The notes under the pieces: model-generated
Told to the model about the DNA's origin: nothing
Database searches by the model: none
What the model saw: the letters and a program-made list of their open reading frames with translations, nothing else
Position numbers and translations under genes: made by a program
IMG/VR virus record: IMGVR_UViG_3300050138_000571
Span: 32,293-96,292 of that record
Origin: a virus
DNA length: 64,000 nucleotides
Reading direction: 5' to 3' (one strand)
In this document: positions 20,936-44,329 of the stretch, in pieces
Layout: each line of letters opens with the position of its first letter
Position numbering within the stretch: the stretch's first letter is position 1

Positions 20936-20942
20936 ATGATTG
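20936..20942 (-). promoter_or_regulatory. Class B start-associated motif
   Basis: CAATCAT on the minus strand, 6 nt before the ATG at 20929. It lies in a 21-nt gap between leftward genes. Confidence 0.6.
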
Positions 20943-20950
20943 GTGCCGGA

Positions 20951-21526
20951 TTAGATCCAGGCCCAGATGCGGTGCCAGGTGCGCGCAATCCATCCAGAAG
21001 CGACGTTTGCGTCTTCCTTGGCCCGGGCCTCCAGCTCCTTGGCGGCGGCCACAGCGGCTTCCTGGGTGGCCTTGGCGGCCATGGCAGCCGTGGAGTCGAC
21101 AACGGCGACGACCACGGGGTTCTTGAGGTGGCCTACCACCGTCTCCAGCTCCTTGATCACCCTGGACTTGTCGGCCTCAGCCTTGACAGAGTTGACGAAG
21201 GCGGTCAACGCGGTCTCGACGCCCTTGATGGCAGCGTGCGCGTCGGCGTTCAGCTTCTCTTCGACGGCTTTCGCGTCGGCCACAACCTTCGCGGCTTCCG
21301 CTTTCGCGTCAGCATCCATCTTCTCGCAGGCGGTGCAGACGAACTTGCAGCCCTTAGCGACGATCTTCTCGGCCTCGGCGACACCCAGGCGCATATCCTT
21401 GAGGGCGTCCGCCACGATGGCCTTGGCGTCCTTGACGACGACGGTCTCGACCTTTTGGACCTCGCCAACGACGGCAGTTTCGGCCGATTTGATGGCCCCT
21501 TCAACTTCTTGAACCAAATTACTCAT
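20951..21526 (-). CDS. Ala-rich helical protein
   Basis: A 191-residue protein of Ala, Val, Lys and Glu in long amphipathic helices, with CKFVCTACEKMD in the middle (a possible metal or disulfide site) and a Trp-rich end (WIARTWHRIWAWI). It looks like an extended coiled-coil or apolipophorin-like helix bundle. A virion or membrane-associated role is possible. No family recognised. Confidence 0.65.
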   Translation of the reverse strand: MSNLVQEVEGAIKSAETAVVGEVQKVETVVVKDAKAIVADALKDMRLGVAEAEKIVAKGCKFVCTACEKMDADAKAEAAKVVADAKAVEEKLNADAHAAIKGVETALTAFVNSVKAEADKSRVIKELETVVGHLKNPVVVAVVDSTAAMAAKATQEAAVAAAKELEARAKEDANVASGWIARTWHRIWAWI

Positions 21527-21529
21527 AGT

Positions 21530-22072
21530 TCATATGATTGAGAGTGTGTTTGTATAGAGACGTAACTGTCGCGCAATGGCCTCAGTCCTGGGGTCCAGTT
21601 TGAAATTGATGCGCGAGAACTCCCCGAATGCCGCCAGCGCGGCCCGGTCGTAGGCGAGCGCGGCCTGGACCGGGGAGAGGAAGTAGCCAAGGTGACGGAG
21701 CTTGCCGTTGCTCCTGACGTAGGCCCTCCACTTATTTTGTCGGCTCCCCCAAGAGACCCCCTTGAACCCGCTGGTATTATTCGCCTGACGGTCGCGGTTC
21801 GCGCTGTTCAGGTCGCGGGGGTCGGGTCTCAGGTTGCTCTCTCGATTGTTCAGACCGTTGCGGTCGACGTGATCAGGCGGTCCGACAATGCCCATTCTGC
21901 GGGCGATGACCTGATGGAGCGCAACGGTCGTCCGGGTGCCGTCCGGATTACGGACGGAGCGCTGAGCATAGACGGTCTTGTTGCCCTTTTTTGCACACCA
22001 ATTAAATGCGATCAGATCGGCGTGTTTGTCGTCGATCGTTGTGACCTTGCCCTGAGTGAGTTGGATCTCCAC
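21530..22072 (-). CDS. HNH endonuclease with AP2 domain (homing type), copy 2
   Basis: A 180-residue paralogue of the gene at 13397. It shares the N-terminal MEIxLTxGxVTxIDD, the HNH core (DHVDRNGLNNRESNLRP) and the AP2-like domain (GVSWGSRQNKWRAYV, AALAYDRAALAAFGEF). The start is GTG. Unlike its structural neighbours it is preceded by a class A motif, so it probably arrived with its own promoter. It is inserted between two virion-type genes. Confidence 0.85.
   Translation of the reverse strand: MEIQLTQGKVTTIDDKHADLIAFNWCAKKGNKTVYAQRSVRNPDGTRTTVALHQVIARRMGIVGPPDHVDRNGLNNRESNLRPDPRDLNSANRDRQANNTSGFKGVSWGSRQNKWRAYVRSNGKLRHLGYFLSPVQAALAYDRAALAAFGEFSRINFKLDPRTEAIARQLRLYTNTLSII
21534..21540 (-). 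promoter_or_regulatory. Class B motif
   Basis: CAATCAT, 7 nt before the ATG at 21526. It overlaps the last bases after the HNH gene's stop codon, showing how tightly the insertion is fitted. Confidence 0.6.
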
Positions 22073-22078
22073 ACCAAC

Positions 22079-22091
22079 CTATAGCGAACGC
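22079..22091 (-). promoter_or_regulatory. Class A motif in the structural block
   Basis: GCGTTCGCTATAG on the minus strand, 6 nt before the GTG start of the second AP2-HNH gene. It is the only class A copy between 20 and 43.6 kb. Confidence 0.8.
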
Positions 22092-22092
22092 C

Positions 22093-22560
22093 CTATCGAT
22101 CTGGGGGCACGACGGTGAACGCGCTGCCGAGCGAGACCGTCGGCCTCTCGTACGCGAACTTGTAATTCGTCCCGTTCTCGACCAGATCGCCAGAGATGGT
22201 CTGCGTGGAGACGACGGTAGTCGATGGGGCCTGCCCCATCGACCTTCCGCACTTCGAGCAGGCCGGGGGCGTGATGCTCATCCAGACCTGCGGGAATTCG
22301 TGGCTGCCGCCCATCGGGCACATGTCGTTGTAAATGATCTGCGGCCACGGGAGGGGGTACTGCGGCTGGTATGGCGCATCTTTCGAGCCCTTCATCAGCT
22401 CGTCGATGAGTTTCCCGATGCTTCCCATGTCCCCGAGGCCGGGGCAGGCAGGGGCCGTCTTGATGGTGATCGGCGCCGAATCGATGAAGGGTCCCAGCTC
22501 AGCGGCCGTGCCCTCTAATTCGATTATTGTGCCGTCTTTCTTCGTGATCTTTGCTTTCAT
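22093..22560 (-). CDS. Hypothetical protein with CxxC motif
   Basis: A 155-residue protein. The start at 22560 is supported by GAAGGG 6 nt upstream; an upstream in-frame ATG at 22653 is less likely. The N-terminus (ITKKDGTIIELEGTAAEL) recalls short phage proteins with a small beta domain, and the middle has PACSKCGRS, a possible zinc knuckle. No family recognised. Confidence 0.6.
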   Translation of the reverse strand: MKAKITKKDGTIIELEGTAAELGPFIDSAPITIKTAPACPGLGDMGSIGKLIDELMKGSKDAPYQPQYPLPWPQIIYNDMCPMGGSHEFPQVWMSITPPACSKCGRSMGQAPSTTVVSTQTISGDLVENGTNYKFAYERPTVSLGSAFTVVPPDR

Positions 22561-22693
22561 TGGTCGCCCTTCGTGATGGATCGTAGCTCTGCTCGGACCC
22601 TGGTTCGTTCCCGCCCTCGGCCTCGATACGCTTTGTCGGGGCAACAGCCGCAAAGCAGCCGTCCCCGCTCCCGACGGTTACTACCGTAGGCCG

Positions 22694-23023
22694 TCACGGC
22701 GTAGACACCGTCTCGATTCGGAGGTTTTCTGTACGCATTAGGTCATCCACCTTCCGATCGATGGACGCGTACCCCTCGGCAATCACCGCGGCCTGGGTAT
22801 GGGCCCATCTGACAAACTTGGGGTTGATGGACAACCGCCGGAGCGCCTCCCTGCGATTCTGATGCTGGGACCGCTGCGACTCCGATTCCCCGATGGCGCC
22901 GGACGGCTCGTGGGTAAACCGGATCGCGGAGGAGGTCTTGTTGCGCTTCTGGCCGCCGGCCCCCGATCCCCGGTACTGCTCTTCTCGCAGGTCAGATGGC
23001 TTGATGGAGAAAAGAACGGGCAT
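22694..23023 (-). CDS. GGQ-containing release-factor-like protein
   Basis: A 109-residue protein made of little more than the RF-1 catalytic domain. [11 protein letters not shown] (GGQ at residues 23-25), [12 protein letters not shown] and [13 protein letters not shown] match class I release factors and ribosome-rescue hydrolases of the ArfB type. It has no codon-recognition domain and no long basic tail like ArfB. It could hydrolyse peptidyl-tRNA on stalled or terminating ribosomes. A phage copy is uncommon. A class B motif lies 9 nt before the ATG. Confidence 0.75.
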
Positions 23024-23032
23024 CGCGCCTGA

Positions 23033-23039
23033 ATGATTG
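23033..23039 (-). promoter_or_regulatory. Class B motif
   Basis: CAATCAT, 9 nt before the ATG of the GGQ protein gene, within the 22-nt gap after the endolysin-like gene. Confidence 0.6.
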
Positions 23040-23546: not shown

Positions 23547-23553
23547 ATGATTG
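23547..23553 (-). promoter_or_regulatory. Class B motif within a palindrome
   Basis: CAATCAT sits inside the perfect palindrome CCCCAATGATTGGGG (23543-23557) and ends 6 nt before the ATG at 23540. Confidence 0.6.
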
Positions 23554-23582: not shown

Positions 23583-25463
23583 TTACGACAGGCCGCCCTG
23601 AACCCAGTTGGTGCCGTCGTAGTGGAGGACCAGCAAGCTGTTGGCGCTGACCGTGGTCACGTTGGCGCCGGCCTGGAGCAGGATCGAGGCCGTGCCGGCC
23701 GGGGGCGATGCGGCTTTGTGGTGGACGACGACACCGGCCGCGACGCGCAAATACAGCGTGCTGCCGAGCTGCCACGGCGCGATCGTGATGAACGAGAACG
23801 CTCCAGTACCGCCGCCAACCGAGTTCCAGTTTTGGGTGAATGTCAGCGTCGTGGCGCCGGATTGCGCGGACACGAAAGTGGCGTTGACGATGATCGTGCT
23901 CGAATTGAGCGAGAGCCCGTTGATGCCTGGAGCCGTAATGGACACAGGTCCGCTGACGGATTGGATCGTGAGGGCGCCGCCGGAACTGCCACCTGCCTGA
24001 AGCAACAGGTCGCCGTTGTTGGCGAGAAGGGTGAGAAGCGCGTTGTCTGAACGGAGCGTGGCCGGGCCAGCGCCGTTGGTGCGGATCATGATGCTGGAAT
24101 CGTTAATGCCCCCGCCGATCAGGAGCTGACCGATTCCCAGGGCTCCGAAGAGAACGCCACTCCCGCTGCCGCCGCCGCCGCGGGAGATGCCGGTGGCATA
24201 GGCGAGGCCCTCCAGGTCAACGGCTACGACCCTAGGATCGCTGCCGCTGTCGAGGCTGGTGGTGAGCGCCGACAGCTTGATAGTGCCGGAGCTGCTATCC
24301 GTGGCCAGTTTGAAGCTGGATCCGACCGCGTAGGATTGGTCGCGGACAAAAATGCTGGCGCCGTAGCGCCACGCCAGAACCCAGCGGCTGCCGGGAACCG
24401 CTGGCGTCCCGAGCAACGACAGCGACGTTTTTTGGGCATTCAGTGACGTGACACCAGCCCGGGTTCTGGTCACTGTCCGGTCCAGGTCGACGTAGATGCA
24501 CTCGCCGTCCGCGAGATCCGTCAAACCGGCGGAGTCAGTGGTCTGGTCGGTGATCTCGTTGTAGACCCCAGTACTGTTGGCGAACGTGATGGTCAAGCCT
24601 TGCCAGTGCAAGTTGCTTGATACCCACTCGAAATGCTCTCCGCTTGACGAGAACGAACTCCCGGTCCGGGCCATGACCACGTTGCGGTCCGAGGTCGGGC
24701 TGTACCAGTATTCGCCGCCGCCAAGCTCCCAGACGCGAGTCATTGTCGCGTCCATCCACGACTTCATGCTGCCGATGGCCTTGTCGCCGCCGAGAAACGG
24801 ATCCGCGGAACTGGTCTCGTTTCGGCCGGCCGGCCACGAGTACGTGTTCTTGACGTTGGGAGTTGAGCCGCCAGTGCCCAGGCGCCACAGGATGTTCCGG
24901 GCGTCCTGCACGGACGTGATGCTGCTGTTGGCGTCGAGGGTGACCTTTGCCAGCGGGCAGACGCCGCTGTTGGAGTCGAAGTCCGACGCGGAAATGATAA
25001 TCGTGTAGTCGATCGTGCGGGCGAGGGGGATCGACTTGGTGACCTCTGCGCCTTGGTCCGGATCGAAAAACTGTACGGCATCGGTCGTCGTGGGATCATT
25101 CGCGCGCGAGAAGTCCAGGCCGATGTAATTCGTTTGGCTTGGGAGGAAGGAGCCCCGGATCTTGGGGTTGGTGCTCGCCAGCACTTCGTTGGGGCGGTTG
25201 GCGTCTACCTGGAAGACGGTGCCGGCGTCGGTGGCGTAATAGTGCATCAGCACGCCGCCCGCCACCTGGATCTGGAGGGCGCCGGGCTGCGTGACGCCGG
25301 ACGTGATCAGGTTGAACCCAGCTACGATGGCCGGGATGCGGTTGGCCATGATGGTTCCGGCCAACAGGTCGAAGTCGGCCGCGACCGCGCTTTCGATGGC
25401 CCGCAAAAATGGGACATCGACTCTTTGCTGGGCGTTCCAGGAGACCTGCCGTTTGACTGCCAC
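23583..25463 (-). CDS. Tail fibre or receptor-binding-type protein
   Basis: A 626-residue protein starting with GTG. The N-terminal 150 residues (WNAQQRVDVPFLRAIESAV) look like the virion attachment part of phage fibre proteins. The rest is Ser/Thr/Gly/Asn-rich beta structure with repeated LTLLANNGDLLLQAGG-type strands and a C-terminal part like fibre tips (LYLRVAAGVVVHHKA, LVLHYDGTNWVQGG). It probably contacts the cell surface. No chaperone or enzymatic domain is visible. Confidence 0.65.
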   Translation of the reverse strand: MAVKRQVSWNAQQRVDVPFLRAIESAVAADFDLLAGTIMANRIPAIVAGFNLITSGVTQPGALQIQVAGGVLMHYYATDAGTVFQVDANRPNEVLASTNPKIRGSFLPSQTNYIGLDFSRANDPTTTDAVQFFDPDQGAEVTKSIPLARTIDYTIIISASDFDSNSGVCPLAKVTLDANSSITSVQDARNILWRLGTGGSTPNVKNTYSWPAGRNETSSADPFLGGDKAIGSMKSWMDATMTRVWELGGGEYWYSPTSDRNVVMARTGSSFSSSGEHFEWVSSNLHWQGLTITFANSTGVYNEITDQTTDSAGLTDLADGECIYVDLDRTVTRTRAGVTSLNAQKTSLSLLGTPAVPGSRWVLAWRYGASIFVRDQSYAVGSSFKLATDSSSGTIKLSALTTSLDSGSDPRVVAVDLEGLAYATGISRGGGGSGSGVLFGALGIGQLLIGGGINDSSIMIRTNGAGPATLRSDNALLTLLANNGDLLLQAGGSSGGALTIQSVSGPVSITAPGINGLSLNSSTIIVNATFVSAQSGATTLTFTQNWNSVGGGTGAFSFITIAPWQLGSTLYLRVAAGVVVHHKAASPPAGTASILLQAGANVTTVSANSLLVLHYDGTNWVQGGLS

Positions 25464-25473: not shown

Positions 25474-25480
25474 ATGATTG
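25474..25480 (-). promoter_or_regulatory. Class B motif
   Basis: CAATCAT, 10 nt before the GTG of the fibre gene; AAAGG lies between, so a short leader with a ribosome binding site is also possible. Confidence 0.55.
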
Positions 25481-25910: not shown

Positions 25911-28900
25911 TTAGTCGCCCTCTCGGAGCGTCGCCAGCTCATCCTCAAGGGAGTCACCACCCCAAACCACGACAGCGTCAGAGAGCTTCTGCGCTCCCGA
26001 GGTGGGGTCTCCGGCATTGCCCAGGCCCACGTCCGACGGATAGACGACGGACCTCTCGATGGCGAGCCCCGAAGCCTGGATGTCGTCCAGGGCTGCCCCG
26101 GCGGCGATGCGGCCGGCAGCGGAGGAAGTGAGGTAGAAGTTGCCAGTCAAAGGATCCGCGTTGGGATCCGGCACGAAGGGTAGGTTGGACTGCAGGAGCG
26201 TAACAGTGACGCCGGCCGGAATGGAGGCCGGGAAGCGGAAGGAAGCGTCGAGCTTGAGCGAGACGTTGTCTAGGCGGCCGATGTACTTCACGGGCCCGAC
26301 CTGGCCCTTGAAGCCGAAATTGAATACCAGGTACCCGACCTGATCGGGGAATAGGAGCGCGGGATTCGAGTCGCTGCCGGTGTCGAGGGCGAAGGTGGCG
26401 TGGCTTTGGTTGCCGTTGATGGCTTGCCCCAACACCGCCACGATCCCGGTGACCGAGAGCCCGGCCCTGGGATCGTACGAGAACGGCCCGGGCAGGCCCG
26501 CAGGCGCGGGGAGCGCTCTTTCGGGGGTGATGGTCGCCCCGGCAGTCTCGATGTACGGGGTTCCGCGGGAGATGGTGTCCGAAACCGAGTAAGTGAACGC
26601 GGTCGGGCTCGGGACCGACGTGATGGAGGCTTGACGGTTCATGCCACCCGCCCGAACGACGTCCGAGCCCGGCACGACTACGTAGTTGAGCTTGGCGGTG
26701 TTATTGGCGGCTTGGAGGCCACCGACCACCACGAAGGCGTCCGTTGCAGCCAGGCCTCCGCTGGACAGCGTGAGCGCAGTGCCAAGAACCGCCCGCGACG
26801 TCCGCCAGCGCATGATGGCGATGTCGAGCGTCTCAACGACGGGGCTTCCCCCGCCCGCCACGAAGACGGCATTGCGCGTCGGCAAGTAGCTGACGACTGG
26901 ATTCACGCGGCCGACAGACATCGGGGGCAACGCGGCCCAGAGCCCGGTGCTCGGGTCGTAGATCTCGCAGCTCGCAAGCGTGTTGTTGTAGGAGTGCTGG
27001 GTGGCGTTGCCGCCGGTGCCGCCGACAACGAGTACGCGGCCATCGGGCAGGACCAGCGAGCCGAAGTCGCGGCGCGCGTCCGTCATGGAAGCGGCCGTAG
27101 CCCAGGTGTGCCCGGCGACGGAGTAGGATTCGACCGAGTTCAAGATGTTCGAGGCCCCGTCGACGCCCCCGATTGCGAGTCCGTTTCCGTTGGCGAGACC
27201 GACGAGCTGGTGCCACATGCGCGCCCTGATCATGCTCCCTCGCGCGGTCCAGGTGCCGGTGCCAGGATCGAAAGTGTAGGAGGTCGCGACCACGGCGCCT
27301 CCACTCCAGCCGCCGCCGATTAGGGCATTGCCGCCGGTCAGGGTACATTGGCCGTGACCAGCCTTCACCGCCGGCAAGGTCCCACTCGTCAGCAGGTTCT
27401 GCGCGGGCACGTTCGTGTACGTGTAGAGGTCCCAGGCGTTCAGGGCGGTGCCCGAGACGTCGGTGTCGCTGTTGGTGCCGCCAGTGACCAGGACGCGGCC
27501 GTCAATGAGCGCGGAGGCCCCGATGCCGCGTTTGCCGACCGTCTGCGTGTGTGTGACGAGATTGGTCCATTTGTACCCGAGAGCCCGGCCTCCGTTGCCG
27601 AGTACGGTGTCGCTCGTAATCTCGAAGATCTTGGGATTGACGATGGCGGCGTCAGTGCCAGGCGAGGTCTGGGTCATGCCTCCGACCAACATCAGCAGGC
27701 CTTCGGCCGTGCGAACCATCCTGTGATTCACGGCTTGGACGGTGTCCGCCTCGCTGGCCATCGACTGCAGGGACGCGCTCGTGGTGCCGGTCGCAATGTT
27801 CGAGCTGAAGTCGCCGCTGATCGTGCCGGCGGTGATGGGCGGCGCCGCCCCAGTCGGGATCGCCCCGTCGATGAATACCTGATCCCCAACCGCCATCCCG
27901 TGGGTGGTCGACGTCACGCCCGTCACGACTCCGCTGGGAGCCCGGATCAGAGAAGTGAGGGTAATGGGGGCCTGCACGTTTACGTATGCTCCGGTGCCGG
28001 GACCGCGCCGAACGATGTTCGTAGTGGCCGGTAGCTCGACCTTCCCGAGCTGCGTCACGATCACGTGTCGTTGCTGGTCGTATAGCGTCGCCTTCGTGGG
28101 GCGGAAAAACATTGTGGTCGTGAAGTCCGTTTGCGCGTACGTGCCAACCGGAACAGCCACGTAGGCGATTTCGAAGTACTGATGTACGGGTGGCGACATC
28201 GACGCCACCACGTAGTACTTGTCGACCGCGGTCACTGGGAATGTCCCCTGGATCCCGGCAACGGCAAAGGGATCGGTCGGGTCCCCGTAGATGTGCACGA
28301 GGTCGCCGATGCGCAGCTTCCCAAAATCGAATCCCCCCGAGGCCGTTGAGAATCGGGCAACCCCTGGAGCCGGGGCTGTGACCGTCCACGTGGTCGCGGA
28401 GAAGTCGCTGATGTCGAAGACTGGCGTCGGGAATTTGAGCCACCGCTGCGCTGACCCCCCGACCACTCGGACACTGGAGGAAAGGCCTCGGCTGCCGCTG
28501 TAGACGCGGACAAAGGTCGAGCGGGCGGTCGGGTCAGTGTACGCGATGGCGTAAGCGTTGCTTCCGGCCTCGTTGAAGGCCCGGTTGATCTCACCACTCA
28601 CTTCCAGGGCCGTCGCCGCCGCGACCTCGGTGTAGTGGGTGCGATCGAAGGTAACAGTGACCGTGACCTTCTCGTCGAGAAGCAGCACCAACGTGTCCTG
28701 GTCAACCAGAGAGAACGGCTCGGCGCCGGTGGACGTGGAGACGCCGCGGACGGCATCAGGCCCGTAGAAGACCTCCAGGACCTCCAGGAAGGCCTCTTGG
28801 GTCAGCTTCTTGTTCTTCTTGATGATCGACAGTGCCCGGAAAACGTCATCGGACATTCCGACCGAAGCCGGCTTTACCTCTCCGAAGTTCGCCGCCGCTC

Positions 28901-29141
28901 GCTCCAGGTATTTGCCCGAAGCCGTGGAGATGAATAGCTGGTCAAAGGCTGCGAGGGCGTTGTCCCAATTCGTCTGATCTCCGGTCGCGATGGCGGAGAT
29001 CAGTGCGTCCCATCCAGGCCCAACCAAGGAAGGGTTTGTGAACTTCCGAAGCACCTCCTCGGCAGAATCGTTGGACGTGCCGGCCGCCAGGCCACTCTGG
29101 GTCTGGACCTGGTCGACCTGGAAAGTAAAACTAGATGCCAT
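25911..29141 (-). CDS. Baseplate/tail protein with kelch beta-propeller
   Basis: A 1076-residue protein. Start 29141 (ATG) is preferred over TTG at 29147. Residues 1-130 are helical and tail-protein-like. Residues about 470-820 hold six or so kelch units such as RVLVTGGTNSD, GNALIGGG, RVLVVGGTGG and AVFVAGGG, with the usual paired glycines and aromatic residues. The C-terminal 250 residues are beta-rich. Kelch propellers bind glycans or proteins, so the domain may decorate the baseplate for adsorption. It is followed by a small structural gene and is long for a baseplate protein. Confidence 0.75.
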   Translation of the reverse strand: MASSFTFQVDQVQTQSGLAAGTSNDSAEEVLRKFTNPSLVGPGWDALISAIATGDQTNWDNALAAFDQLFISTASGKYLERAAANFGEVKPASVGMSDDVFRALSIIKKNKKLTQEAFLEVLEVFYGPDAVRGVSTSTGAEPFSLVDQDTLVLLLDEKVTVTVTFDRTHYTEVAAATALEVSGEINRAFNEAGSNAYAIAYTDPTARSTFVRVYSGSRGLSSSVRVVGGSAQRWLKFPTPVFDISDFSATTWTVTAPAPGVARFSTASGGFDFGKLRIGDLVHIYGDPTDPFAVAGIQGTFPVTAVDKYYVVASMSPPVHQYFEIAYVAVPVGTYAQTDFTTTMFFRPTKATLYDQQRHVIVTQLGKVELPATTNIVRRGPGTGAYVNVQAPITLTSLIRAPSGVVTGVTSTTHGMAVGDQVFIDGAIPTGAAPPITAGTISGDFSSNIATGTTSASLQSMASEADTVQAVNHRMVRTAEGLLMLVGGMTQTSPGTDAAIVNPKIFEITSDTVLGNGGRALGYKWTNLVTHTQTVGKRGIGASALIDGRVLVTGGTNSDTDVSGTALNAWDLYTYTNVPAQNLLTSGTLPAVKAGHGQCTLTGGNALIGGGWSGGAVVATSYTFDPGTGTWTARGSMIRARMWHQLVGLANGNGLAIGGVDGASNILNSVESYSVAGHTWATAASMTDARRDFGSLVLPDGRVLVVGGTGGNATQHSYNNTLASCEIYDPSTGLWAALPPMSVGRVNPVVSYLPTRNAVFVAGGGSPVVETLDIAIMRWRTSRAVLGTALTLSSGGLAATDAFVVVGGLQAANNTAKLNYVVVPGSDVVRAGGMNRQASITSVPSPTAFTYSVSDTISRGTPYIETAGATITPERALPAPAGLPGPFSYDPRAGLSVTGIVAVLGQAINGNQSHATFALDTGSDSNPALLFPDQVGYLVFNFGFKGQVGPVKYIGRLDNVSLKLDASFRFPASIPAGVTVTLLQSNLPFVPDPNADPLTGNFYLTSSAAGRIAAGAALDDIQASGLAIERSVVYPSDVGLGNAGDPTSGAQKLSDAVVVWGGDSLEDELATLREGD

Positions 29142-29152: not shown

Positions 29153-29159
29153 ATGATTG
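29153..29159 (-). promoter_or_regulatory. Class B motif
   Basis: CAATCAT, 11 nt before the ATG at 29141, immediately after a GC-rich hairpin. Confidence 0.55.
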
Positions 29160-29205: not shown

Positions 29206-32200
29206 TTAGAGGGTCGTGGACCCGTCTGCGGACATGATATTGCTCCCAGATAGCGTCCACTTGCCTTGACTTAGGGGTGCGGCTAGAAGGCAGTCGATCG
29301 ACTTTGCGTCACCGCGAACGGGAAGCGCCGCGATCACGTAAGTGACGTCGTTCCCCGACAGCGTATAGTTCGCCGGGTGGAGGGCGTCGGCTGCCGCGGT
29401 AGGGTCCACGGCCTGTGGGGGGTAGCTGAACTGAACTCGGACGGTCGACAGCCCGATCAGCTTGATACCTTGGATGAAGAAGCCCGTCGCTGGCGGCGGG
29501 AACACTTGGATCGTGGCCTGCGCCGTGTTCCCGAGGTCGTCTGCGACCTGGACGATATCAGTGGTGGAGGAGACAGTGCCGGCGGTGTACACGCCGGTGC
29601 TGCTGTTGATCGAACCACCGCTGTGGTTCTGGACCAGGGAGAAGGTAATTCCAGTCCCGCTACCTCCGGCATCCGTGAACGTGTGAGACCTTGACACATT
29701 GATGTCGAGTGTCGTTGGGCTGATCGTGAGGTTCGGGCCAACCGTGATGGTCGCGTTCGCGGTATTTCCGAGGTCGTCAGTGACTCTGACGGTGTCAGTA
29801 ACGGAGCCCGTGGCCCCGGCCGTGTAGGCGCCGGTCGACGTATTGAGCGAACCACCGCTGTTGTTGGTGACGAACGAGAACACGATGCCCGTCCCAGAGC
29901 CTCCGGCATGCGAGAACGTCTGGCTGGCGCGAGGCGCCTTCGTAACAGATGCCGGGCTGATGGAGAGGTTCGGACCGACCGTGATGATGCAGGCGCCTGT
30001 GTTCCCGAGGGAGTCGATGGCCTGGATCGCGTCGGTGACGCCACCGGTCGCGCCGGCAATGTAGTGGCCGGAGGAATCGATCGAACCACCGCTGTTGTTG
30101 GTGACGAACGAGAACGTGATGCCGGTGCCGCTGCCGCCTGCCGCCGTGAAGTTGTGGTGGGCCCGCGGCGCCAGCGTGATCGACGGCGGACTGATGGCGA
30201 CGGGGGGAATGTGGACGGTGGCGTCGCCGGACTCGGCGACGGAGCTGTTCCCGAGGGAGTCGGTTACCGTGACGACGTCGTCCAGGGCCACGGAACCAGC
30301 GATATAGGCGCCGGTGCTTGAATTGATGGAGCCGCCCGACTGATTGTCGTTGAAAGCGAAGACGTAGCCGGTGCCGCTGCCGCCGGACGCGGTGAAGGTC
30401 TGGGTGCCGAGGGGCGCCTTCGTAACGGAGGTCGGCGAGATCGAGACGCCGGGGCCGACGGTCACAACCGCGTCGGCGGTCCCGCTGAACGTGTCCGAGA
30501 CCCGGACCGTATCACTGCAGTCCGGAGTCGAACCGGCGGTGTACACTCCGGTCGAGCTGTTGACTGAGCCACCGCTGTTGTTGGTGTGGATCGTAAATAC
30601 GTAGGGGCCGGTGCCGTCGGCCGCGGTAAACAGCTGGGTAGCAAGCGGGCTCAGGCTGACCGGGGTCGGCGCAATGCTGAGGGCGGGCGGAGTGAGAACG
30701 GTGATGGTGCAGTCTGCGGTTGCAGAGCTGAGGTCGGTGACGCGTACGATGTCAGTGCCGTCGGTGGGACCCGCATCCCACTCTGCGGTGCCGTCGCCGT
30801 TGTCAGTGAGAGAGCCCCCGCTCTGGTTCTGAAAGGTTGAAAATACGTAGTTGGCGGGGTTGCCACCGTCGTTACCACCTCCGGCGGTGATGCTGAACAC
30901 CGAGGTCAGGGGTGGGATCGTGGTGGCAGTCGGAGTGATCGCGAGCGGGCTGGCGAGGTACCTTGTCGTGAGATACGCCTCAACCGCCGCCCGGTCGGCA
31001 CCGCTCAAAACATGATCGTAGATGAGGATTTCGCAGATGTCGCCGTGGAACGGAAAGACAAGCGAGCCTCCGGAGTCGACCCGCGCGCCGATAGAGGGTT
31101 GATCTGTGCCGACGCGCACGAGCAAATTGGAGGCAACGACTGTGCCGGCTCCATTGATCAGGCCAGTGTAATTAGCTGGTGTACTGTTCGTGCCGCCGTT
31201 GTACGAGCTTTCCCAAATCGTCGGCGACGTGGTCACGGCCGTCGCGAGCCCGACGGCGCTGGTCGTACTCGTGAGGTCGTTTACGAACGTATACGGCTGA
31301 TATCCAGGGGAGACAAAATCGACCACCAGTTCGGCCCATGCGGGTCCCGATAGCCCCTTCATGCTAATGAGAGAAAAGCCACTGTGCGGAGTCGAGGCGG
31401 CCTGATGGACGATGAACAGGTGGCTGGCGCCCTGTAAATCGGGTCCGCCGATCATCCTCGACGTGGAACCGTTGAACGTGATGCCCGGCAGTCCGTTGAT
31501 CGAACTCGTGTTCAGCACACACGACAGACCGGGCGCCGTTACGTTGTTGCCGTTGCCAGACTGGTCAGCCCAGGCCGTGACATTCGAGCCCGAGAGCGTG
31601 ATGCCGGCGCCGGCAGTGAGCCAGAGCTTCAGGCCGGTGGTAGGCAGACCGACTGCGACCACGGCGTCTGCGGTATTTCCTACCGAGTCGGTGACTCTGA
31701 CGGTGTCAGTAACGGAGCCGGTGGACCCGGCCGTGTACACTCCGGTCGAGCTGTTGATCGAGCAACCGCTGTTGTTGGCATTAATCGAATAGACGTAGCC
31801 AGCACCTGATCCATTGCTGCCGGTGAAGGTTTGCGATGCGCCCGTGGCCACGATAGGCGACGGTGGCGAGATGGACAGCGCCGTGATTCCGAGGCTAATG
31901 GCGTACTTGGTTTGGAGATACGCCCGTACCTGCTGAAGATCGCCGCTGCTGAGAACGCTGTCGTAGATGAGGATTTCGCAGATGTCACCGTTGAACGGCC
32001 AGGTGGCATGATCTCCCCGTACGCCGATGGCAGTACCAGTGCCGCCGGTATCGCTTGTGACGTTGGAACCAGCAAAGCTCCCAAGGGTCTGGGTGACTGC
32101 ATTCAGATTGACGACCGGCGGTGATCCAACCTGTGCCTTCCATTCCCAAACCTGGCCAGATCCAGTGAGCCTGGGGGTGGCCGCGTCTGTTAGAAGGACA

Positions 32201-32589: not shown

Positions 32590-32634
32590 TTATCCGCGCC
32601 TGCGAACGGACTCAAAAAGATGGCTCACCCCCCA

Positions 32635-32641
32635 ATGATTG
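32635..32641 (-). promoter_or_regulatory. Class B motif, long spacing
   Basis: CAATCAT, 45 nt before the ATG of the modular fibre gene, 11 nt after the stop of the giant baseplate gene. Confidence 0.5.
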
Positions 32642-35600: not shown

Positions 35601-38600
35601 CCGAGCCGCGCCACCAGTTGTGGAGACCGACGAGGGAGTAAGCTACGTCTACGAACGAGGCGCCGACGACGACGCTGCCTGCGGCCGTGTTTGCGCGCAC
35701 GTTGATGTCATTGAAGGCCGGCGCCCCCAGCTCGCTCTTCGACTCTACCGAGCCCACGTGGTCGGTGAGGTTCTCGATGGCGGAGGCGGGCGTGAGCCCG
35801 AAGCCGGCGGCGGCCGGGTTCTGGGCGACTAGGGCGATGTCGCCGTACTGGGCGTGCGTGTTGGTCGTGATCCGGACCCTGTTGGTCTGGTAGATGGTGG
35901 CGGTGGCTCCGGTGAGTGCAGGCGGCAGCGAGAGGCCGGCCAGTCCCGGGTTCGAGGCGTCGGCGTTGACGACGGCAGCAAACGTGCTGGCGGTGTAGTT
36001 GGTGGCGACCGGGACATCGACCTCGCGGACGAGACCTGCGGTTCTGACGACGGCGGCGCCGTTCCCCGTCAGGGTGACGGTGCCGAGGGCCGGATCAGGC
36101 AGCGACCATGAGTCGGCGGTGTTGTCGTACTGCTCGATGGTGGCGGACGGCAGGAAGCCCCAAGCGGTCGAGAGCTGGACGGCGCCGCCGATAGCGACGA
36201 TCCGGTTCTTGATGGTGGCAGACCCGTTCGCGATGGCGACGGACTGGACCCTCCACCTTCCCGAGGTGTCGCGGGTGACGGTGTCGGAGGCGATGGTGGT
36301 GAAGGTCGTGCCGTCGTACTGGAAACCGACCGAGGACGCGAGGTCGCTGGAGGTGCCGTTCAGGCCGACGACGTGTCCGTTCGGCAAAGAAACGAGGTCG
36401 TTCTCTTCGAAATTCATCGTGCTCGGGAGCGCGGTCTCTGCGCCCCAGAGGCCGGTGCCAATCGTGTAGATCTCGTACGTGCCCTTGCCCGTGGCTCCGA
36501 ATTTTGCGCCGGCTGCGAGAACGGCGGTCGGAGAGGTCCCGACGCCCGCGAGCCCGAACGAAGACCGGGGCCGGGTCATGGACCCGGTGGCCGTGCACAG
36601 CAGCGTGCCTGCGGACCAGATCTCGGCCGTTGCCAGGTCGGCGCCGAGGTTGCTGACGCCGCCAACGATCAAGACGTTGTTGTTCGGCAGCCGAACCTGC
36701 CTGTGGCTGCGGCGCGCCGCTACCATGGAGCCGGTGGTGGCGAAGCTGTCGGAGCCAGGAACGTAGTCATAGAAAGCGATGACAGCGCCCGACAGACCCT
36801 GGCCGCCGGTGATGAGGACGTTGTTGTTCGCGAGCAACGTGGCCTGATGCCGCATCACGCCCGCCGTCAATACCGAGGCCTTCGTGGTCCAGGTGTTGGA
36901 GGTCGGGTTGTAGACCTCCATCGAAGTCAGGAAGTTGCCGGCATCGTCCATGCCGCCGGTCACGAGGACGGTGCCGTCCGCGAGCAGGGTAGCCGTGTGG
37001 TACGCGCGCGCCGTCGACATGGGCGCGCAAGGCGTCGACAGGCTCGTGTTTGGGTCGTAGATCTCGCAGCTATCGGTGACGCCGACTGGGTTGGACGACA
37101 TCGACGAAAGCGGGCTCACGCTGCCCCCGGTCGTCAACACTTTCGAGATCGAGGCCCCGGAGCCCGGAAGCGCCACTGAACGATGTCCAACTCGCAGGGC
37201 TGCGCCGAGACGGCGCTCGACCACGATCGCGGTGCCGGTGGCGGAGACGACGCGGAACGCGCCCTGCAGAGATGCGTTCAGGGCCGGGTCCCAGAGGACC
37301 AGCCAGTCTCCGGCTTGAATGTTCACGAACGGAGTGCCGGCGCTCGCGAGCAGTCGGACGGTATGTCCCCAGTCGTGCATCGCGTAGACGCTGACGGTGA
37401 TCGAGGTCGCGCTGTTGATGCCGGTCGTGACGATTTGCGCGTCCCCGTCGACCACGAACCACATCTTGGCCACGCTCGACAGCGTCGTCGGCGAGATGAC
37501 ATTGGACTGGGAGAAGGCTCGCGTATTGAGCGAGCCCAGCGACAGCCGATCGCCCGCCGTCAGAGCCGAAGTGAGTGTGATCTGTGATGCGTTCCGGTTG
37601 AGGACGAAATCCGGCGCCGCGCCCTGGGCGCTGACGACCGAGAACAGCTTGTTGGTGACCAACGTCGAGCCATTGAGGATGCTGACCGCCGACTTGTTGC
37701 TGGCGCCGGAGTTGCTCGTCAGCACGATGCGGCCATTGCCATTGCTGGCGGTGACCCCGGGGACGGCCGCGTTGATGACCGAGACCCAGGCGTCGACGGT
37801 ATTGCGCCCCATGCTGGTGAAGCCGGTCCCGGCGTCGATGAAGTTCTGGCCCGAAAAAGTGAAAGTGATCGATGGAGTCCCGTCGACTGACAGGATCAAG
37901 GTCTGGGTCCCCGAGAGCGTGTCCCAATCGGAGAAGGCGAGGCCGGCGACGGAAGCAACGGTGCCGTCCTTGGTCATCAGGCGATCGTTCTTGTAGAGCT
38001 GGACCGTGTAGACGATGTTCGGAGGGAACAGGAGGGCGGCGTTCGCGTCGGTGCCGGCGCTGGCGATCACCTCGACGTCCTCATTGGTGTCCGTTTTGGC
38101 GAAGACGACGACCTGGGAGCCGCCCAGGGTCCTGGCCTGGAACGTTAGCTGCGGGTTCGCGTTGATCGAGGCGACGACCTCGTAAGCCGACGCGTTGCCG
38201 ATCGAGGCGAAGCCGCTGGAGTCGAAGACGTGGACCGAGGTCGTGCCGGCCACTTTGACCGACAGCACCGCGCCCTGAGACAGGGCGAATGGGGCGGTGT
38301 TCTGCGTCAGGCAGAAGGCCTTGGCGACCGGGCGCTGGGAGATCGAGATGTCCTGCTCGCCGCCAGCCGCGGAGTCGATGAGGATCTCGATGGCTACCGG
38401 GGACGTCTGCTCCTCGTACCCGGTGCCGTCGTCGACGTAGAGGGTCGAGGTGTCCTTGCGGCGGATGATGTTGGAAGAAGAGACGCGCTTGTTCTCGTCG
38501 GTGGCAGTGATCCCCAAGACAGCGTTCTTGAGCGCGAGGGTGGTGCCGGTCTGGCGCGACTCGGCAACGGCGCGGATGCGCTCGCGGTAGGGGTCGTCCA

Positions 38601-39405
38601 GCTCGGTGTCGACGCCGTTGGAGAAAGGGAGGGGATTGGTGACGGTCGCTCCGGAGAAAGGCGGCTGCACGAACTGCACGATCGAGTTCGCGAGCACGTT
38701 GCCGACGGTCCCCTTGAGCTGTGCGACGACCGTGACTCCGGTGACTGAGGTCTCGCCGTCTAGTACCAGGGCCTTGTAGAGTGTGCGGAACTGGACCGCG
38801 GACGCCACGTTCGCCTGGGGTGTCTGGCAGACAGTGCCCGGGCCAATGGTGCGGGCACCACCCTGGGCCAGAACCACGGTCTCGGTCGTGTTGTGGAACG
38901 AGGTGGTGCCGGTCGCGAGCGACAGCGTCCAGTGGGTCCCGACGTTGGTCTTGGAGGTGTAGGCGATGGGGCCTTCGTAGTTCGTTGTCCCGCGGCCGAT
39001 ATAGACGGAGCCTGTGGAGGGGAACGAAGTCGCATCGACAAGAGAGAGAACGGTGCTGCCCACGATCGGGGCCGAACCGCCTTGGAAGAGCGCGGTCGAC
39101 TTTTTCGTGAACGAGCTATCGGAGATGGTGACGTTACCGCTGGACGCCGACTCCTGGAGCCGAGGGCACTGCTCGTCCTTGCCCCTGCGGTCGAGAGCGG
39201 TCTTGGTCGAGTTGTCCAGTGAGGTCGAGTTCAGGACCCCAAACGTGTCTTGAGAGGAACGGAGATCGCTGCGGGCCGCAGCTTCGAGCATAGACAGGAT
39301 TCCGCCGCCAACGCGGAGGTTTTTCACGCCGACCTTTGACCTGAACCCGTCTACGAGATCGGACAGGATCTGCTGGTACGACCTTGGGGTCGGGATAGTT
39401 CCCAT
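32653..39405 (-). CDS. Giant baseplate J-like protein with internal kelch domain
   Basis: A 2250-residue protein. The N-terminus (YQQILSDLVDGFRSK, NSTSLDNSTKTALDRRG) and DTELDDPYRERIRAVAES near residue 265 are characteristic of baseplate J/gp47-like wedge proteins. The last 120 residues (KRISVSLLLRVRSG, VVGVLAVTIVSP) match the usual C-terminus. Between them is about 1800 residues of insertion, with kelch units at about 760-1015 and beta-rich repeats elsewhere. Typical family members are 300-400 residues. The start is ATG, 8 nt after a class B motif. The product assembles the baseplate wedge. Confidence 0.85.
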   Translation of the reverse strand: MGTIPTPRSYQQILSDLVDGFRSKVGVKNLRVGGGILSMLEAAARSDLRSSQDTFGVLNSTSLDNSTKTALDRRGKDEQCPRLQESASSGNVTISDSSFTKKSTALFQGGSAPIVGSTVLSLVDATSFPSTGSVYIGRGTTNYEGPIAYTSKTNVGTHWTLSLATGTTSFHNTTETVVLAQGGARTIGPGTVCQTPQANVASAVQFRTLYKALVLDGETSVTGVTVVAQLKGTVGNVLANSIVQFVQPPFSGATVTNPLPFSNGVDTELDDPYRERIRAVAESRQTGTTLALKNAVLGITATDENKRVSSSNIIRRKDTSTLYVDDGTGYEEQTSPVAIEILIDSAAGGEQDISISQRPVAKAFCLTQNTAPFALSQGAVLSVKVAGTTSVHVFDSSGFASIGNASAYEVVASINANPQLTFQARTLGGSQVVVFAKTDTNEDVEVIASAGTDANAALLFPPNIVYTVQLYKNDRLMTKDGTVASVAGLAFSDWDTLSGTQTLILSVDGTPSITFTFSGQNFIDAGTGFTSMGRNTVDAWVSVINAAVPGVTASNGNGRIVLTSNSGASNKSAVSILNGSTLVTNKLFSVVSAQGAAPDFVLNRNASQITLTSALTAGDRLSLGSLNTRAFSQSNVISPTTLSSVAKMWFVVDGDAQIVTTGINSATSITVSVYAMHDWGHTVRLLASAGTPFVNIQAGDWLVLWDPALNASLQGAFRVVSATGTAIVVERRLGAALRVGHRSVALPGSGASISKVLTTGGSVSPLSSMSSNPVGVTDSCEIYDPNTSLSTPCAPMSTARAYHTATLLADGTVLVTGGMDDAGNFLTSMEVYNPTSNTWTTKASVLTAGVMRHQATLLANNNVLITGGQGLSGAVIAFYDYVPGSDSFATTGSMVAARRSHRQVRLPNNNVLIVGGVSNLGADLATAEIWSAGTLLCTATGSMTRPRSSFGLAGVGTSPTAVLAAGAKFGATGKGTYEIYTIGTGLWGAETALPSTMNFEENDLVSLPNGHVVGLNGTSSDLASSVGFQYDGTTFTTIASDTVTRDTSGRWRVQSVAIANGSATIKNRIVAIGGAVQLSTAWGFLPSATIEQYDNTADSWSLPDPALGTVTLTGNGAAVVRTAGLVREVDVPVATNYTASTFAAVVNADASNPGLAGLSLPPALTGATATIYQTNRVRITTNTHAQYGDIALVAQNPAAAGFGLTPASAIENLTDHVGSVESKSELGAPAFNDINVRANTAAGSVVVGASFVDVAYSLVGLHNWWRGSDGTSAYSPTFFYARAGSNQGFRTRITGTQAYTDLSRIDLRDPSVEPWAPLDRAYLAAPFAIGPSDDLTVIVDNDVSKRFSIKMWRALAPVGNTYLQTNTFTDADASTGLQNTFGSTYDFNDFSVYMNSRAVAFSGDSTRSLLFRFYRLGPEGDTARVRFGNPVAPNTALNVTTTMAADKTDVTVRLASGALRTPTVRNTTFLGQTATAVDGGGTATILQVLNLAIGSASRTSNVDTLTLTLPAGVTDHGLLVGAVVWVQSTSVDFSSGQKTITSRSATTISYAETAANAGPDANIGDVSYDSAGEATFSGSSTAVTDFFRCNAGTSAFSNLTFQISAVAAGGGSVTTLSGDQLDGSGLTPSGTLVWQPLGVSTNLQVMTNTPQTCTAVVAAINALAAVPNSTCPITAAVLGNGSGTIVNPTTDTLDNSKGWYSLSDGVNWVQVTVLPGSNYQLTFKKPINGTLSANAAWQDEVIHIAPSTTKNVVNWLKTPTITGLFTACSIQASDDGTKVQIASLTPGSAGGVQVQGGLANTVLVPIIGSLQSLLAKGASTIKTSDAVGISKGFWCRVDNATPLPIINNFGVGLAITGWNSAGLVTFSAPVVGPIVAATQAKVRIERQGDFVFVSDMGLAGNIGLSSAQAGAYVRITPAVSPTGGFPQVSSTNQGIYRVLRTVNVETGAAGGLFIENADSIDETVECEIAIYTSNGVMPGDLFVISTPIWGNGKQGTWKVKAVGETSAGSGDQFTHLDRFTVDVSTRTPVPQGSGPALTSTTAGLVYLIENRPTSFILKVDGIAPNQVDGTLTDIRWDQLSQYSAMGSSAGSVIKVLDKLSFPLTFASGSDGYRYSTGLIAEANKVIYGDPADPTTYPGEASEGANVDIAGPLIKRISVSLLLRVRSGVSQDGIADRVRSAVATVVNQTGVGQSIALSAIIAAAAKVVGVLAVTIVSPSYGVGSDSISVNANEKPLILSLTTDIGVTFLGV

Positions 39406-39408
39406 CGC

Positions 39409-40182
39409 TTACGATGATTGAGGTCGGTGGGTGTGAGCGTGAATTCTGTCGATATGAGAAAGGAACGCTTCGACGCCCATCTCCCATTTCATGATGTTGC
39501 AAGGGGAGCAGCACGGGACCGCATTGACGATATCGTACCCTAATGCGTTGTCGACCCTGTCGACTCCGTTGGCTACATATGGGTGTTGGGTCTTTCGGCT
39601 GTAGACCATGTTAGGGGCGGCCCCGCAATAACGGCAAGATGCTGAGGTGAGGGACGCGAACTCCTCTATAGTTAGGTTCCACGACAAACTGCGGTCGCGG
39701 GCCCCCGCCTTATAGTGGGTGAACATAAACCTGACCCCTCCCGTGAGCCCTCCACTGGAAACATATTTTTGATGACCCAGCTCCCGCAACCTGTCCGCCG
39801 CCCCACACCCGCAGGACTGTATGCCGTTCGCAATCTTTAACTGCGCCGCACTCGTCACGAACTCGGCTCTGCAATCGCAAGTACAAGCAGCCTGGGCCAG
39901 GCGTTTACCCGATACCGATTGGCACATCCCGTCGACCACCAATTTGCCATAGCGTTTGCCCGTCAGATCTCCGGTTTTGGCGTACGCGAGGTCCCGCTTC
40001 AGGCACCCGCAAGACCTGACGGCGCCTTTCTTTAGGTTGTACCCAGGGCAGAGGGTAGACCCGCCGCACTCGCAAGCGCACTCCCACAGCGTATTGGTAA
40101 AGCGGTCCTTGCCGGCCCTACCCTTCACGGTTAGGCGGCCGAAGTGTAGTCCCGTATAATCAGTGCCTCTCGCTGGTTTCAT
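39409..40182 (-). CDS. HNH endonuclease, inserted between baseplate genes
   Basis: A 257-residue protein. Start at 40182 gives MKPARGTDYTG, 8 nt after a class B motif; longer starts run through that motif. Two CxCG-type zinc modules (CACECGG, RSCGCLKRD; CTCDC, QSCGCGAAD) come before the HNH part (CRYCGAAPN, NGVDRVDNALGYD, AVPCCSPCNIMKWEMG). The latter is a well-known homing-endonuclease ending. It ends 3 bp from the start of the giant baseplate gene. Confidence 0.8.
   Translation of the reverse strand: MKPARGTDYTGLHFGRLTVKGRAGKDRFTNTLWECACECGGSTLCPGYNLKKGAVRSCGCLKRDLAYAKTGDLTGKRYGKLVVDGMCQSVSGKRLAQAACTCDCRAEFVTSAAQLKIANGIQSCGCGAADRLRELGHQKYVSSGGLTGGVRFMFTHYKAGARDRSLSWNLTIEEFASLTSASCRYCGAAPNMVYSRKTQHPYVANGVDRVDNALGYDIVNAVPCCSPCNIMKWEMGVEAFLSHIDRIHAHTHRPQSS
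39414..39420 (-). promoter_or_regulatory. Class B motif
   Basis: CAATCAT, 8 nt before the ATG of the giant baseplate gene. It lies inside the 3' end of the HNH coding sequence. Confidence 0.6.
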
Positions 40183-40190: not shown

Positions 40191-40197
40191 ATGATTG
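40191..40197 (-). promoter_or_regulatory. Class B motif
   Basis: CAATCAT, 8 nt before the ATG at 40182, in the 37-nt gap after the LysM baseplate gene. Confidence 0.6.
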
Positions 40198-42718: not shown

Positions 42719-43081
42719 TTAAGCCGCCATCCTTGCGCCCTTGGCCAGATTCTGTTCGGCCCAGAGCGGCTGCAGACGCACGGACAGCTTGTAGTTCAGG
42801 TTATCGCGGTACCGAGTGCGGCTCCATTCTCGCTTCTGGGGGAGGTGGTCTCGCCTGTAGTTTTGGTGATACGCCTTGAATTTGTCAGCGTTGGCTTCTT
42901 GATATCGCTTCTTGCGCTCTGCCTGTTCAGCGCATTTGTCGGCAGGCCGGGACGCTAGATAGGCGGCGTTCCCCTCTTTTAAACAAGCCCTGCAGCGGCT
43001 TTGCCTGCCAGATGGGCGATCCTTGCGCCTGTTGAACTCGCCCTCGTCCTTAGGGAGCATGCACTTGGTGCAGGTCTTCAC
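42719..43081 (-). pseudogene. Internally deleted HNH endonuclease remnant
   Basis: A 120-residue frame starting with GTG. The N-terminal zinc part (CTKCMLPKDEGEF, CRACLKE) parallels the intact gene at 45631. After NYKLSV it jumps straight to RLQPLWAEQNLAKGA; in the intact gene these segments are separated by about 100 residues that hold the HIDHKRPL catalytic core. The catalytic histidines are therefore missing. The final 41 bp shared with the intact gene are identical, so the loss or exchange is recent. A class B motif is still upstream. Confidence 0.7.
42735..42775 (-). repeat. 41-bp exact repeat, copy in HNH remnant
   Basis: Read on the minus strand this is identical to 46336-46376 on the plus strand. 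It encodes LQPLWAEQNLAKGA. Confidence 0.9.
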
Positions 43082-43087: not shown

Positions 43088-43094
43088 ATGATTG
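43088..43094 (-). promoter_or_regulatory. Class B motif
   Basis: CAATCAT, 6 nt before the GTG start of the HNH remnant. Confidence 0.55.
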
Positions 43095-43169
43095 CCGTTG
43101 ACGGCACCGGGCTTTGGGGCTAGACGAGTAAGAGCGCCCCAATGTCGGGGTGACGATTGGGGGTACGAA

Positions 43170-43487
43170 ATGGCGAAAAACACAAACGTGAGCGACTTGG
43201 TCAACGAGTTCGTACAGAAATTGACGGACGCTCTCCAGCGCCAGACCGAGACGCGAGCCCGGGAGGCGGTACTGAGTGCGTTCGGGGGCGGCCCAGCGGC
43301 CCCTAGGGGCGTCCAACGGCCGAGGAAGGCAGGTAGCTCCCACCTCAGGCTAGCGGGCCGCTACATGGGGCTCATCCGCAGGATGAAAAAGGGAGAGCAG
43401 AAGCAGATCAAGGGCGTTCGCGCCACCCAGGGCGTCGAGGCGGCGATCACCTTGATGAACCAGATGACGGCGGCGAGGGGCGCGTAA
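43170..43487 (+). CDS. Small basic, possibly DNA-binding protein
   Basis: A 105-residue rightward gene inside the leftward block. The N-terminal helix (VNEFVQKLTDALQRQTETRAREAVLSAFGGG) followed by a basic Pro/Arg/Lys linker resembles small nucleoid-type proteins with a helical head. The C-terminal half is helical and basic. The start at 43170 follows a GGGGG stretch by 5 nt; a longer upstream start is possible. It may be a regulator at the boundary. Function unproven. Confidence 0.55.
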   Translation: MAKNTNVSDLVNEFVQKLTDALQRQTETRAREAVLSAFGGGPAAPRGVQRPRKAGSSHLRLAGRYMGLIRRMKKGEQKQIKGVRATQGVEAAITLMNQMTAARGA

Positions 43488-43499
43488 AGAAAGGTAGCG

Positions 43500-43546
43500 C
43501 CCTCGTAAGAGCCAACTTCACTTTGCGGGTGATGCTCTTACGAGGG
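43500..43546. repeat. Inverted repeat with 13-bp arms
   Basis: CCCTCGTAAGAGC (43500-43512) is exactly inverted at 43534-43546, with a 21-nt loop. No U-tract is present on either side. It lies just past the rightward gene's stop and past the micro-ORF on the other strand, so it could be a bidirectional terminator, a processing site or a protein-binding site. Confidence 0.7.
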
Positions 43547-43621
43547 CCAGCGGACACGGGGAACACTGTGGCAGACGTGGAGTCCGCGGTCTGCCGGCGC
43601 GGTGGAAAAAGAGCGAGACGA

Positions 43622-43681
43622 TTACTGGGGGTAGGATTCCCCGGCCAACCCACTTTTCTTCGTCTCGTTCTCCCACTCCAT
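43622..43681 (-). CDS. Candidate 19-residue micro-ORF
   Basis: ATG at 43681-43679 reads MEWENETKKSGLAGESYPQ and ends with TAA at 43624-43622. It begins 8 nt after a leftward class A motif and has no other gene downstream for that motif, since the next gene on this strand is over 400 bp away. Confidence 0.4.
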   Translation of the reverse strand: MEWENETKKSGLAGESYPQ

Positions 43682-43689
43682 CACTAAGC

Positions 43690-43701
43690 CTATAGCGAAC
43701 G
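43690..43701 (-). promoter_or_regulatory. Class A motif without a long gene
   Basis: CGTTCGCTATAG on the minus strand, 8 nt before the micro-ORF ATG. It is placed just after the tandem terminators, as a fresh start of transcription. Confidence 0.75.
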
Positions 43702-43716
43702 TCGGGCAAAGGAAAA

Positions 43717-43748
43717 ACCTCCGGAGGATTACAAGGCCCTCCGGAGGT
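43717..43748 (-). terminator. Leftward rho-independent terminator
   Basis: ACCTCCGGAGG and CCTCCGGAGGT form an 11-bp stem with a 10-nt loop; on the minus strand the stem runs straight into TTTTT. Each arm is itself near-palindromic. Confidence 0.75.
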
Positions 43749-43769
43749 AAGTTTAGGCTATAAAATCCG

Positions 43770-43786
43770 GCCCATCAGAGATGGGC
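43770..43786 (-). terminator. Upstream leftward terminator-like hairpin
   Basis: GCCCATC-AGA-GATGGGC, 7-bp stem with 3-nt loop, followed on the minus strand after CGGA by TTTTAT. It acts in series with the stronger hairpin at 43717. Confidence 0.6.
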
Positions 43787-43850
43787 TGGACAGGCACTAT
43801 TGTCCCCAATTCGAGGGATGCCCTTCGGCCTCAGCCGACGTGCTTGGGTC

Positions 43851-44264
43851 TTACGATTGGTGGATCAGGATGAACTGGCACACCTTCGCGGACAGGTCCG
43901 TTGCGGTGGTCTGCTGGATGTGGCCGGCCACGGTGATGGTCGACTCGAACCCGGCGGTCCGGTCGAGCGGGGTCGTCAGGTCGGTCACGGCCATGACCTT
44001 GTCGCCGACTACCGCGCCCGCGAGCACGAGCGAACCAGCGGCGGCGGCGCCGTCCTGGCTCACGACGAGGAACGGGTTGCCCGCAAGGATCGTGGCGCCG
44101 GCCTTGGTGATGCCACCGGCAAAGTCGACCGCGGTGCCGAATCTCCAGGATCCGTCCTCGTCGCTGATCTTGGCGGTTTGAATGGCACGCCCGCCGAAGA
44201 CGCGGGTGCTGAATTTGAAGGTGGTGGGGTATCCGGGGGTGGTGAGAATCGTCGATCCGGCCAT
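43851..44264 (-). CDS. Small virion or decoration-type protein
   Basis: A 137-residue beta-rich protein (ILTTPGYPTTFKFSTRVFGG, NPFLVVSQDGAAAAGSLVLAGAVVGDKVMAVTDLT). The start at 44264 is fixed by AAGGAGA 8 nt upstream. The composition fits a small structural or head-decoration protein. It is the first structural gene after the integrase on this strand and is followed by two terminators. No family recognised. Confidence 0.6.
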   Translation of the reverse strand: MAGSTILTTPGYPTTFKFSTRVFGGRAIQTAKISDEDGSWRFGTAVDFAGGITKAGATILAGNPFLVVSQDGAAAAGSLVLAGAVVGDKVMAVTDLTTPLDRTAGFESTITVAGHIQQTTATDLSAKVCQFILIHQS

Positions 44265-44322
44265 AGTGAGTCTCCTTGAGCGGGTGTGGGTTTTGGGTGC
44301 CCCCAGAGGGGCGGTCAAGGAG

Positions 44323-44329
44323 ATGATTG
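44323..44329 (-). promoter_or_regulatory. Class B motif, long spacing
   Basis: CAATCAT, 58 nt before the ATG at 44264, just past the integrase stop. The gene it precedes has a strong Shine-Dalgarno sequence. Confidence 0.5.

Follow-up and report, generated by a model that had tools for sequence, protein, structure and literature searches.

The late promoters of bacteriophage T4 have the consensus TATAAATA. They consist of a single element and are served by gp55, a sigma-like protein without an equivalent of region 4, and phages related to T4 use variant late consensus sequences (PMC2988020). In phage phiEco32, the sigma factor gp36, which has no homology to region 4, acts at middle and late promoters with the single-element consensus tAATGTAtA; six of these promoters have been mapped, and RNA starts 6-8 bp downstream of the element (PMC8948821). 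Homologous core genes are found in Myxococcus phage Mx1, whose genome announcement (PMC10720576) mentions neither promoters nor motifs in a word search; in the literature searched, the motif described here is mentioned nowhere.

We analysed a 64,000-nucleotide stretch of DNA (the window), which runs from base 32293 to base 96292 of a virus record 96,292 bases long (the contig). Judged by its genes, the contig is part of an Mx1-like myophage, from a family of about 165-182 kb related to Mx1: portal, terminase, baseplate, DNA polymerase III (Pol III), GroEL and sigma genes were all found to have homologues. Identity to Mx1 amounts to 47% for the portal, 47% for the terminase, 46% for baseplate J and 35% for the sigma factor; for Pol III, identities of 43-47% were found, and for GroEL 49%. 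A near-identity DNA search among phages gave no match. The comparison covered seven genomes: the contig, its close relative G001 (168,646 bases; proteins of the compared genes 84-95% identical), Mx1 (169,621 bases; core proteins roughly 30-49% identical to those of the contig) and G002, G004, G005 and G009, which are full records 169-182 kb long. About 90 further loci were gathered with portal and terminase profiles. The large terminase of G001 (L016:10527-13601) contains an inserted segment that matches Hint/LAGLIDADG and is probably an intein; the contig terminase is shorter than that of G001 and, when aligned with Mx1, has no gap of this kind.

Two upstream motifs and the genes they precede

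CAATCAT (class B; CAATCTT in relatives) occurs 12 times in the window, each time on the minus strand, whereas shuffled windows searched on both strands held a mean of 4.4 and a maximum of 10 copies, and none of 100 reached 12. The whole 96-kb contig holds 18 minus-strand and 2 plus-strand sites. For ten of these 20, a called start follows within 33 nt, where 0.28 would be expected (p = 4e-14; p-values are binomial, with sites taken as independent), the starts being those of a simple codon-usage caller that penalises GTG and TTG. All 11 CAATCAT coordinates listed in the first-pass annotation are exact, and each lies in front of a leftward gene. The distance given there, mostly 6-11 nt from the start, applies to nine of the 11; the sites at 32635 and 44323 are the exceptions (Table 1). 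Its description of the downstream genes as structural does not hold for all of them: 42719-43081 and 39409-40182 are HNH/endonuclease VII-like. That class A (GTTCGCTATAG) is missing from this block save before an inserted HNH gene proved nearly right, with sites at 22080 and 43691.

Table 1. Class B sites and examples of class A sites in the window; offset, nucleotides between motif end and start codon
Element	Position	Strand	Start codon	Offset	Downstream gene or context	Relatives
Class B	20936..20942	-	ATG 20929	6	predicted leaderless	kept in G001 at 54724
Class B	21534..21540	-	ATG 21526	7		G001 counterpart 55325
Class B	23033..23039	-	ATG 23023	9		G001 counterpart 56127
Class B	23547..23553	-	ATG 23540	6	predicted leaderless	G001 counterpart 57164
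Class B	25474..25480	-	GTG	10	gene 23583-25463	homologue of Mx1 139197-141188 (TAATCTT there)
Class B	29153..29159	-	ATG	11	gene 25911-29141	homologue of Mx1 kelch repeat protein (TAATCTT there)
Class B	32635..32641	-	ATG 32589	45	1127-aa virion gene 29206-32589; GTG at offset 6	
Class B	39414..39420	-	ATG	8	gene 32653-39405, baseplate J-like, 2250 aa	Mx1 orthologue CAATCTT
Class B	40191..40197	-	ATG 40182	8	HNH/endonuclease VII-like gene	
Class B	43088..43094	-	GTG 43081	6	endonuclease VII-like gene	
Class B	44323..44329	-	ATG 44264	58	58-nt leader with AAGGAG	similar site G001 79752
CAATCAT	16789..16795	-			antisense within rightward gene 16755-17336; outside the range of the first-pass annotation; probably a chance match	
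Class A (TTCGCTATA)	22080..22088	-			inside structural block, before AP2-domain gene 21530-22072	
Class A	43691..43699	-			second site inside structural block, before short ORF	
Class A	3444..3452	+			before DNA polymerase III alpha gene 3463-5253	

Class A has 20 plus-strand and 4 minus-strand sites in the window. In the contig it is found before numerous small genes as well as those for the polymerase, GroEL and Clp, and in relatives before recombination and nucleotide-metabolism genes. It has a fixed spacing of its own, the start lying at offset 8 after TATA in 35 of 75 cases (contig and G001). When the 60 nt upstream of genes were inspected in four genomes, 119 genes carried class A and 72 carried class B, and none of the 191 carried both, with about 11 expected if the two were independent. 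In these genomes the division follows gene function and not strand alone, which supports the earlier suggestion of two promoter classes, here called early/middle and late by the function of the genes. In G001, class A and class B stand back to back at 138726, 140841 and 146930 as divergent promoter pairs, which separate early-type from late-type genes.

Some features of the window lie beside this division. This large, otherwise lytic-looking myophage has a tyrosine integrase gene (44334-45560) adjoining its structural genes; the class A site in front of it (45571) falls just outside the block. The DNA polymerase III alpha gene is split (3463-5253 and 5250-7688), likewise in G001 and G002, and is a single gene in Mx1 and G005. 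A T7-like reading of class A, with a CTATAG core, was set aside. A search with the Pfam model of single-subunit RNA polymerases found no match in the contig or G001; as it was silent in the control genomes as well, its silence here is no evidence of absence.

The motif search upstream of genes that the first-pass annotation had proposed for the whole genome recovered class B de novo in all seven. Counting 7-mers upstream of called genes, with no motif preset, yielded CAATCAT in the contig (where it is the top 7-mer outside class A) and in G001, and CAATCTT in Mx1, G002, G004, G005 and G009. Upstream enrichment reaches p = 1.5e-16 for CAATCAT in G001 and 1e-7 to 4e-23 for CAATCTT in the five genomes, and only one of the two forms is enriched in each of the seven. 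Orthologues follow this rule: the homologues of baseplate J, the kelch protein and 139197 carry CAATCAT in the contig and CAATCTT or TAATCTT in Mx1. Class B stands upstream of structural genes in all seven genomes. In G001, 33 of 38 class B motifs are intergenic and those on the plus strand precede plus-strand genes, the motif thus tracking gene orientation; structural genes occupy different strands in G002 and G005, and there it tracks gene class and not strand. Lower-GC relatives contain many copies of CAATCTT within coding sequence, and near tRNA genes only isolated class B copies occur, at least 69 nt upstream. Some structural genes, that for the capsid among them, lack a class B site within 60 nt.

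Spacing and shape of the class B element

Among 185 intergenic class B sites of the seven genomes, 61 are followed by ATG or GTG at exactly 6 nt, while other nearby offsets account for 3-16 sites each. A Shine-Dalgarno-like sequence is present in 41 of 66 genes that begin 12-80 nt from the motif, compared with 5 of 55 near genes (p = 7e-10). Of the sites without a near start codon, 74% have a purine at the predicted +1 (p = 6e-5), and the extension RGYCG is kept upstream of the motif. In the usual sigma70 numbering, the final T of the -10 element is position -7. With the last T of the motif placed there, a start codon at offset 6 falls on +1, and the mRNA is therefore predicted to be leaderless. 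No -35 element emerged: no column more than 5 nt upstream of the motif reaches 0.2 bits in alignments of 47 and 97 sites. Promoters of the sigma70 type were not above chance in the part of the block that was scanned, and none coincided with a class B site. Taken together, the spacing, the selective use of Shine-Dalgarno sequences, the purine at +1, the extension and the lack of a -35 element point to class B as a promoter with a -10 element only, many of whose transcripts would be leaderless, and not as a ribosome site.

At 32635, the GTG at offset 6 starts a 12-codon ORF that ends directly before ATG 32589 (32589-32641); it may encode a leaderless leader peptide coupled to the 1127-aa virion gene.

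A reduced sigma factor and a candidate cascade

In Mx1, a protein encoded beside the terminase cluster (WNM70309) is annotated as a putative sigma factor. The contig encodes a 346-aa homologue with 35% identity just outside the left end of the window (contig 30423-31463), and homologues occur in some 40 relatives. When 33 of them were combined into a profile, it matched residues 370-566 of the 613 of Escherichia coli RpoD (E ~1e-9, best chain 7.6e-11), from RpoD/SigA region 2 into the beginning of region 4.1. All 33 aligned proteins end at, or within some 20 residues past, the region 4.1 match; region 4.2 is missing. The PHROG sigma families 351 and 17569 are represented, with a sigma match in 26 of the 33. 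Searched singly, the sigma proteins of the contig and G001 gave no Pfam or PHROG sigma match, and the assignment is made because of the family profile and the 35% identity to the Mx1 protein. Likewise, Pfam Sigma70_r2 found nothing in the contig, although the homologue is present: the family has diverged too far for this model to detect. An AlphaFold model (mean pLDDT 87) has sigma-A/RpoD, the bacterial primary sigma, as its best folds (Z ~12). By profile and predicted fold, the protein is a phage-encoded sigma70-family factor. Since region 4.2 reads the -35 element, a sigma factor without it would recognise only the -10 region.

In one relative (L116:2611-4854, L115:466-2709), an intein matched by Pfam Intein_splicing (E 3e-10) interrupts the sigma gene without breaking its reading frame. 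The last conserved stretch of the family (LSLFEQKLL and variants; Mx1 WNM70309, L012:2071-3078) is homologous to region 4.1; presumably it also resembles a bacterial clamp-binding motif.

Motif and sigma factor tend to occur together. Sigma-positive loci contain 32 copies of YAATCTT upstream of genes, where 2.5 would be expected. No upstream YAATCTT is present in four distant portal relatives, whose records are incomplete, and a search of the whole records of three of them found no sigma gene. A scan of host genomes for the sigma factor returned no relative. When sigma residues were set against the A/T position of the motif, differences appeared in regions 2.3-2.4, with a single CAATCAT lineage available for the comparison.

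In the contig, a class A site (27970) is followed by a helicase gene, an HNH-like gene, a 98-aa gene and the sigma gene; the HNH-like gene (contig 29520-30110) is an insertion between the helicase and the 98-aa gene and is lacking in G001. Because the sigma gene thus lies in a class A-led operon, we propose a cascade from class A through sigma to class B. The early/middle genes under class A would be made first, sigma among them; sigma, with the host RNA polymerase core, would then open class B promoters by reading CAATCAT through its -10 region only, and late genes would be expressed. The class B late promoter would have the extended form of about RGYCG-CAATCAT without a -35 element, and the predicted RNA start lies 7 nt beyond its last T. 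At about a third of sites the start codon would be the RNA start, giving a leaderless mRNA, and more distant genes would have a leader with a Shine-Dalgarno sequence. We consider it likely, from the sequence comparisons, that CAATCAT is the -10-type core of an Mx1-like late promoter read by a phage sigma factor truncated in region 4.1, within this cascade. The transcription start, the late timing and the sigma-motif pairing are inferred, the last of them from co-occurrence. Whether both expression classes run family-wide from single-element promoters fused to start codons we put at about even chances; this estimate is a joint one, in which the late sigma factor would read CAATC(A/T)T only and start codons would be placed on the transcription start, leaderless mRNA being standard for late proteins and other late genes keeping Shine-Dalgarno leaders.

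The main competitor, which we judge unlikely, has class B promoters read by a host sigma or another phage factor and the phage sigma reading class A. Sigma and motif are paired solely by their co-occurrence, and both classes are phage-specific, as this would allow. Yet the sigma gene belongs to an operon led by class A, so that class A must work before sigma is made; class B, like sigma, is present in seven of seven genomes, whereas the class A form TTCGCTAT/TTCGATAG was recovered de novo in only four; and a single-element promoter suits a sigma factor without region 4.2. It is distinctly improbable that the motif is a translation-initiation signal, that is, an unusual ribosome site or a start-associated sequence. 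The short distances of most window sites (6-11 nt) and the lack of Shine-Dalgarno sequences in short-distance genes would fit such a signal, but the same motif and extension also stand 12-69 nt ahead of distant genes that do have one, and the spike at 6 is one base wide, narrower than usual ribosome-site spacing. Moreover, the form of the motif differs between lineages (T to A), and it is absent before internal operon genes.

Several structural genes without the motif abut or overlap the preceding gene and are thus taken to be read in operons, as would be expected if one distant promoter served all structural genes and CAATCAT were a spacer or processing signal. Sites are, however, also found before isolated and inserted genes and on both strands, and a processing site leaves the start-codon spike and the purine at the predicted +1 unexplained, which makes this account very improbable. 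A seven-letter word is short, and the window by itself offers only 12 copies against 4.4; with the upstream enrichment in the contig and the independent recovery in six other genomes, the probability of a chance or composition artefact becomes negligible. We therefore retain the late promoter read by the phage sigma factor as the preferred reading.

Relation to known late promoters

For these widespread but little studied phages of about 170 kb, whose family includes the first Myxococcus phage isolated, the analysis provides a predicted regulatory map in which late genes would be recognisable from sequence alone. The natural motif pair CAATCAT/CAATCTT, with matching sigma factors, lends itself to tests of promoter choice by a reduced sigma factor, and the predicted abundance of leaderless late mRNAs can be examined in cultured phage Mx1.

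One close counterpart is Mx1 (OR576727, PMC10720576), which shares homologous core genes and the sigma homologue WNM70309 and has CAATCTT or TAATCTT before late genes; it differs from the contig in the motif form, CAATCAT here, and in a class A consensus that is not TTCGCTATA. With T4, the locus shares a single downstream element without a -35 element, a phage protein of the sigma family that lacks region 4.2 and the proposed connection to late genes, and related phages carry variant motifs here too. In contrast to T4, CAATCAT is unrelated to TATAAATA, many starts are predicted to be leaderless, and the sigma protein, at 346 aa, is larger than gp55 and keeps regions 2-3 and part of 4.1. The likeness to phiEco32 lies in the single-element consensus, the similar distance to the predicted RNA start and a sigma factor without region 4.2, whereas the phages are unrelated, consensus and genome type differ, and dozens of promoters are predicted here against six mapped there. 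On this comparison, the design is very probably of a known type, that of T4 gp55 and phiEco32 gp36, and new for the Mx1-like virus family.
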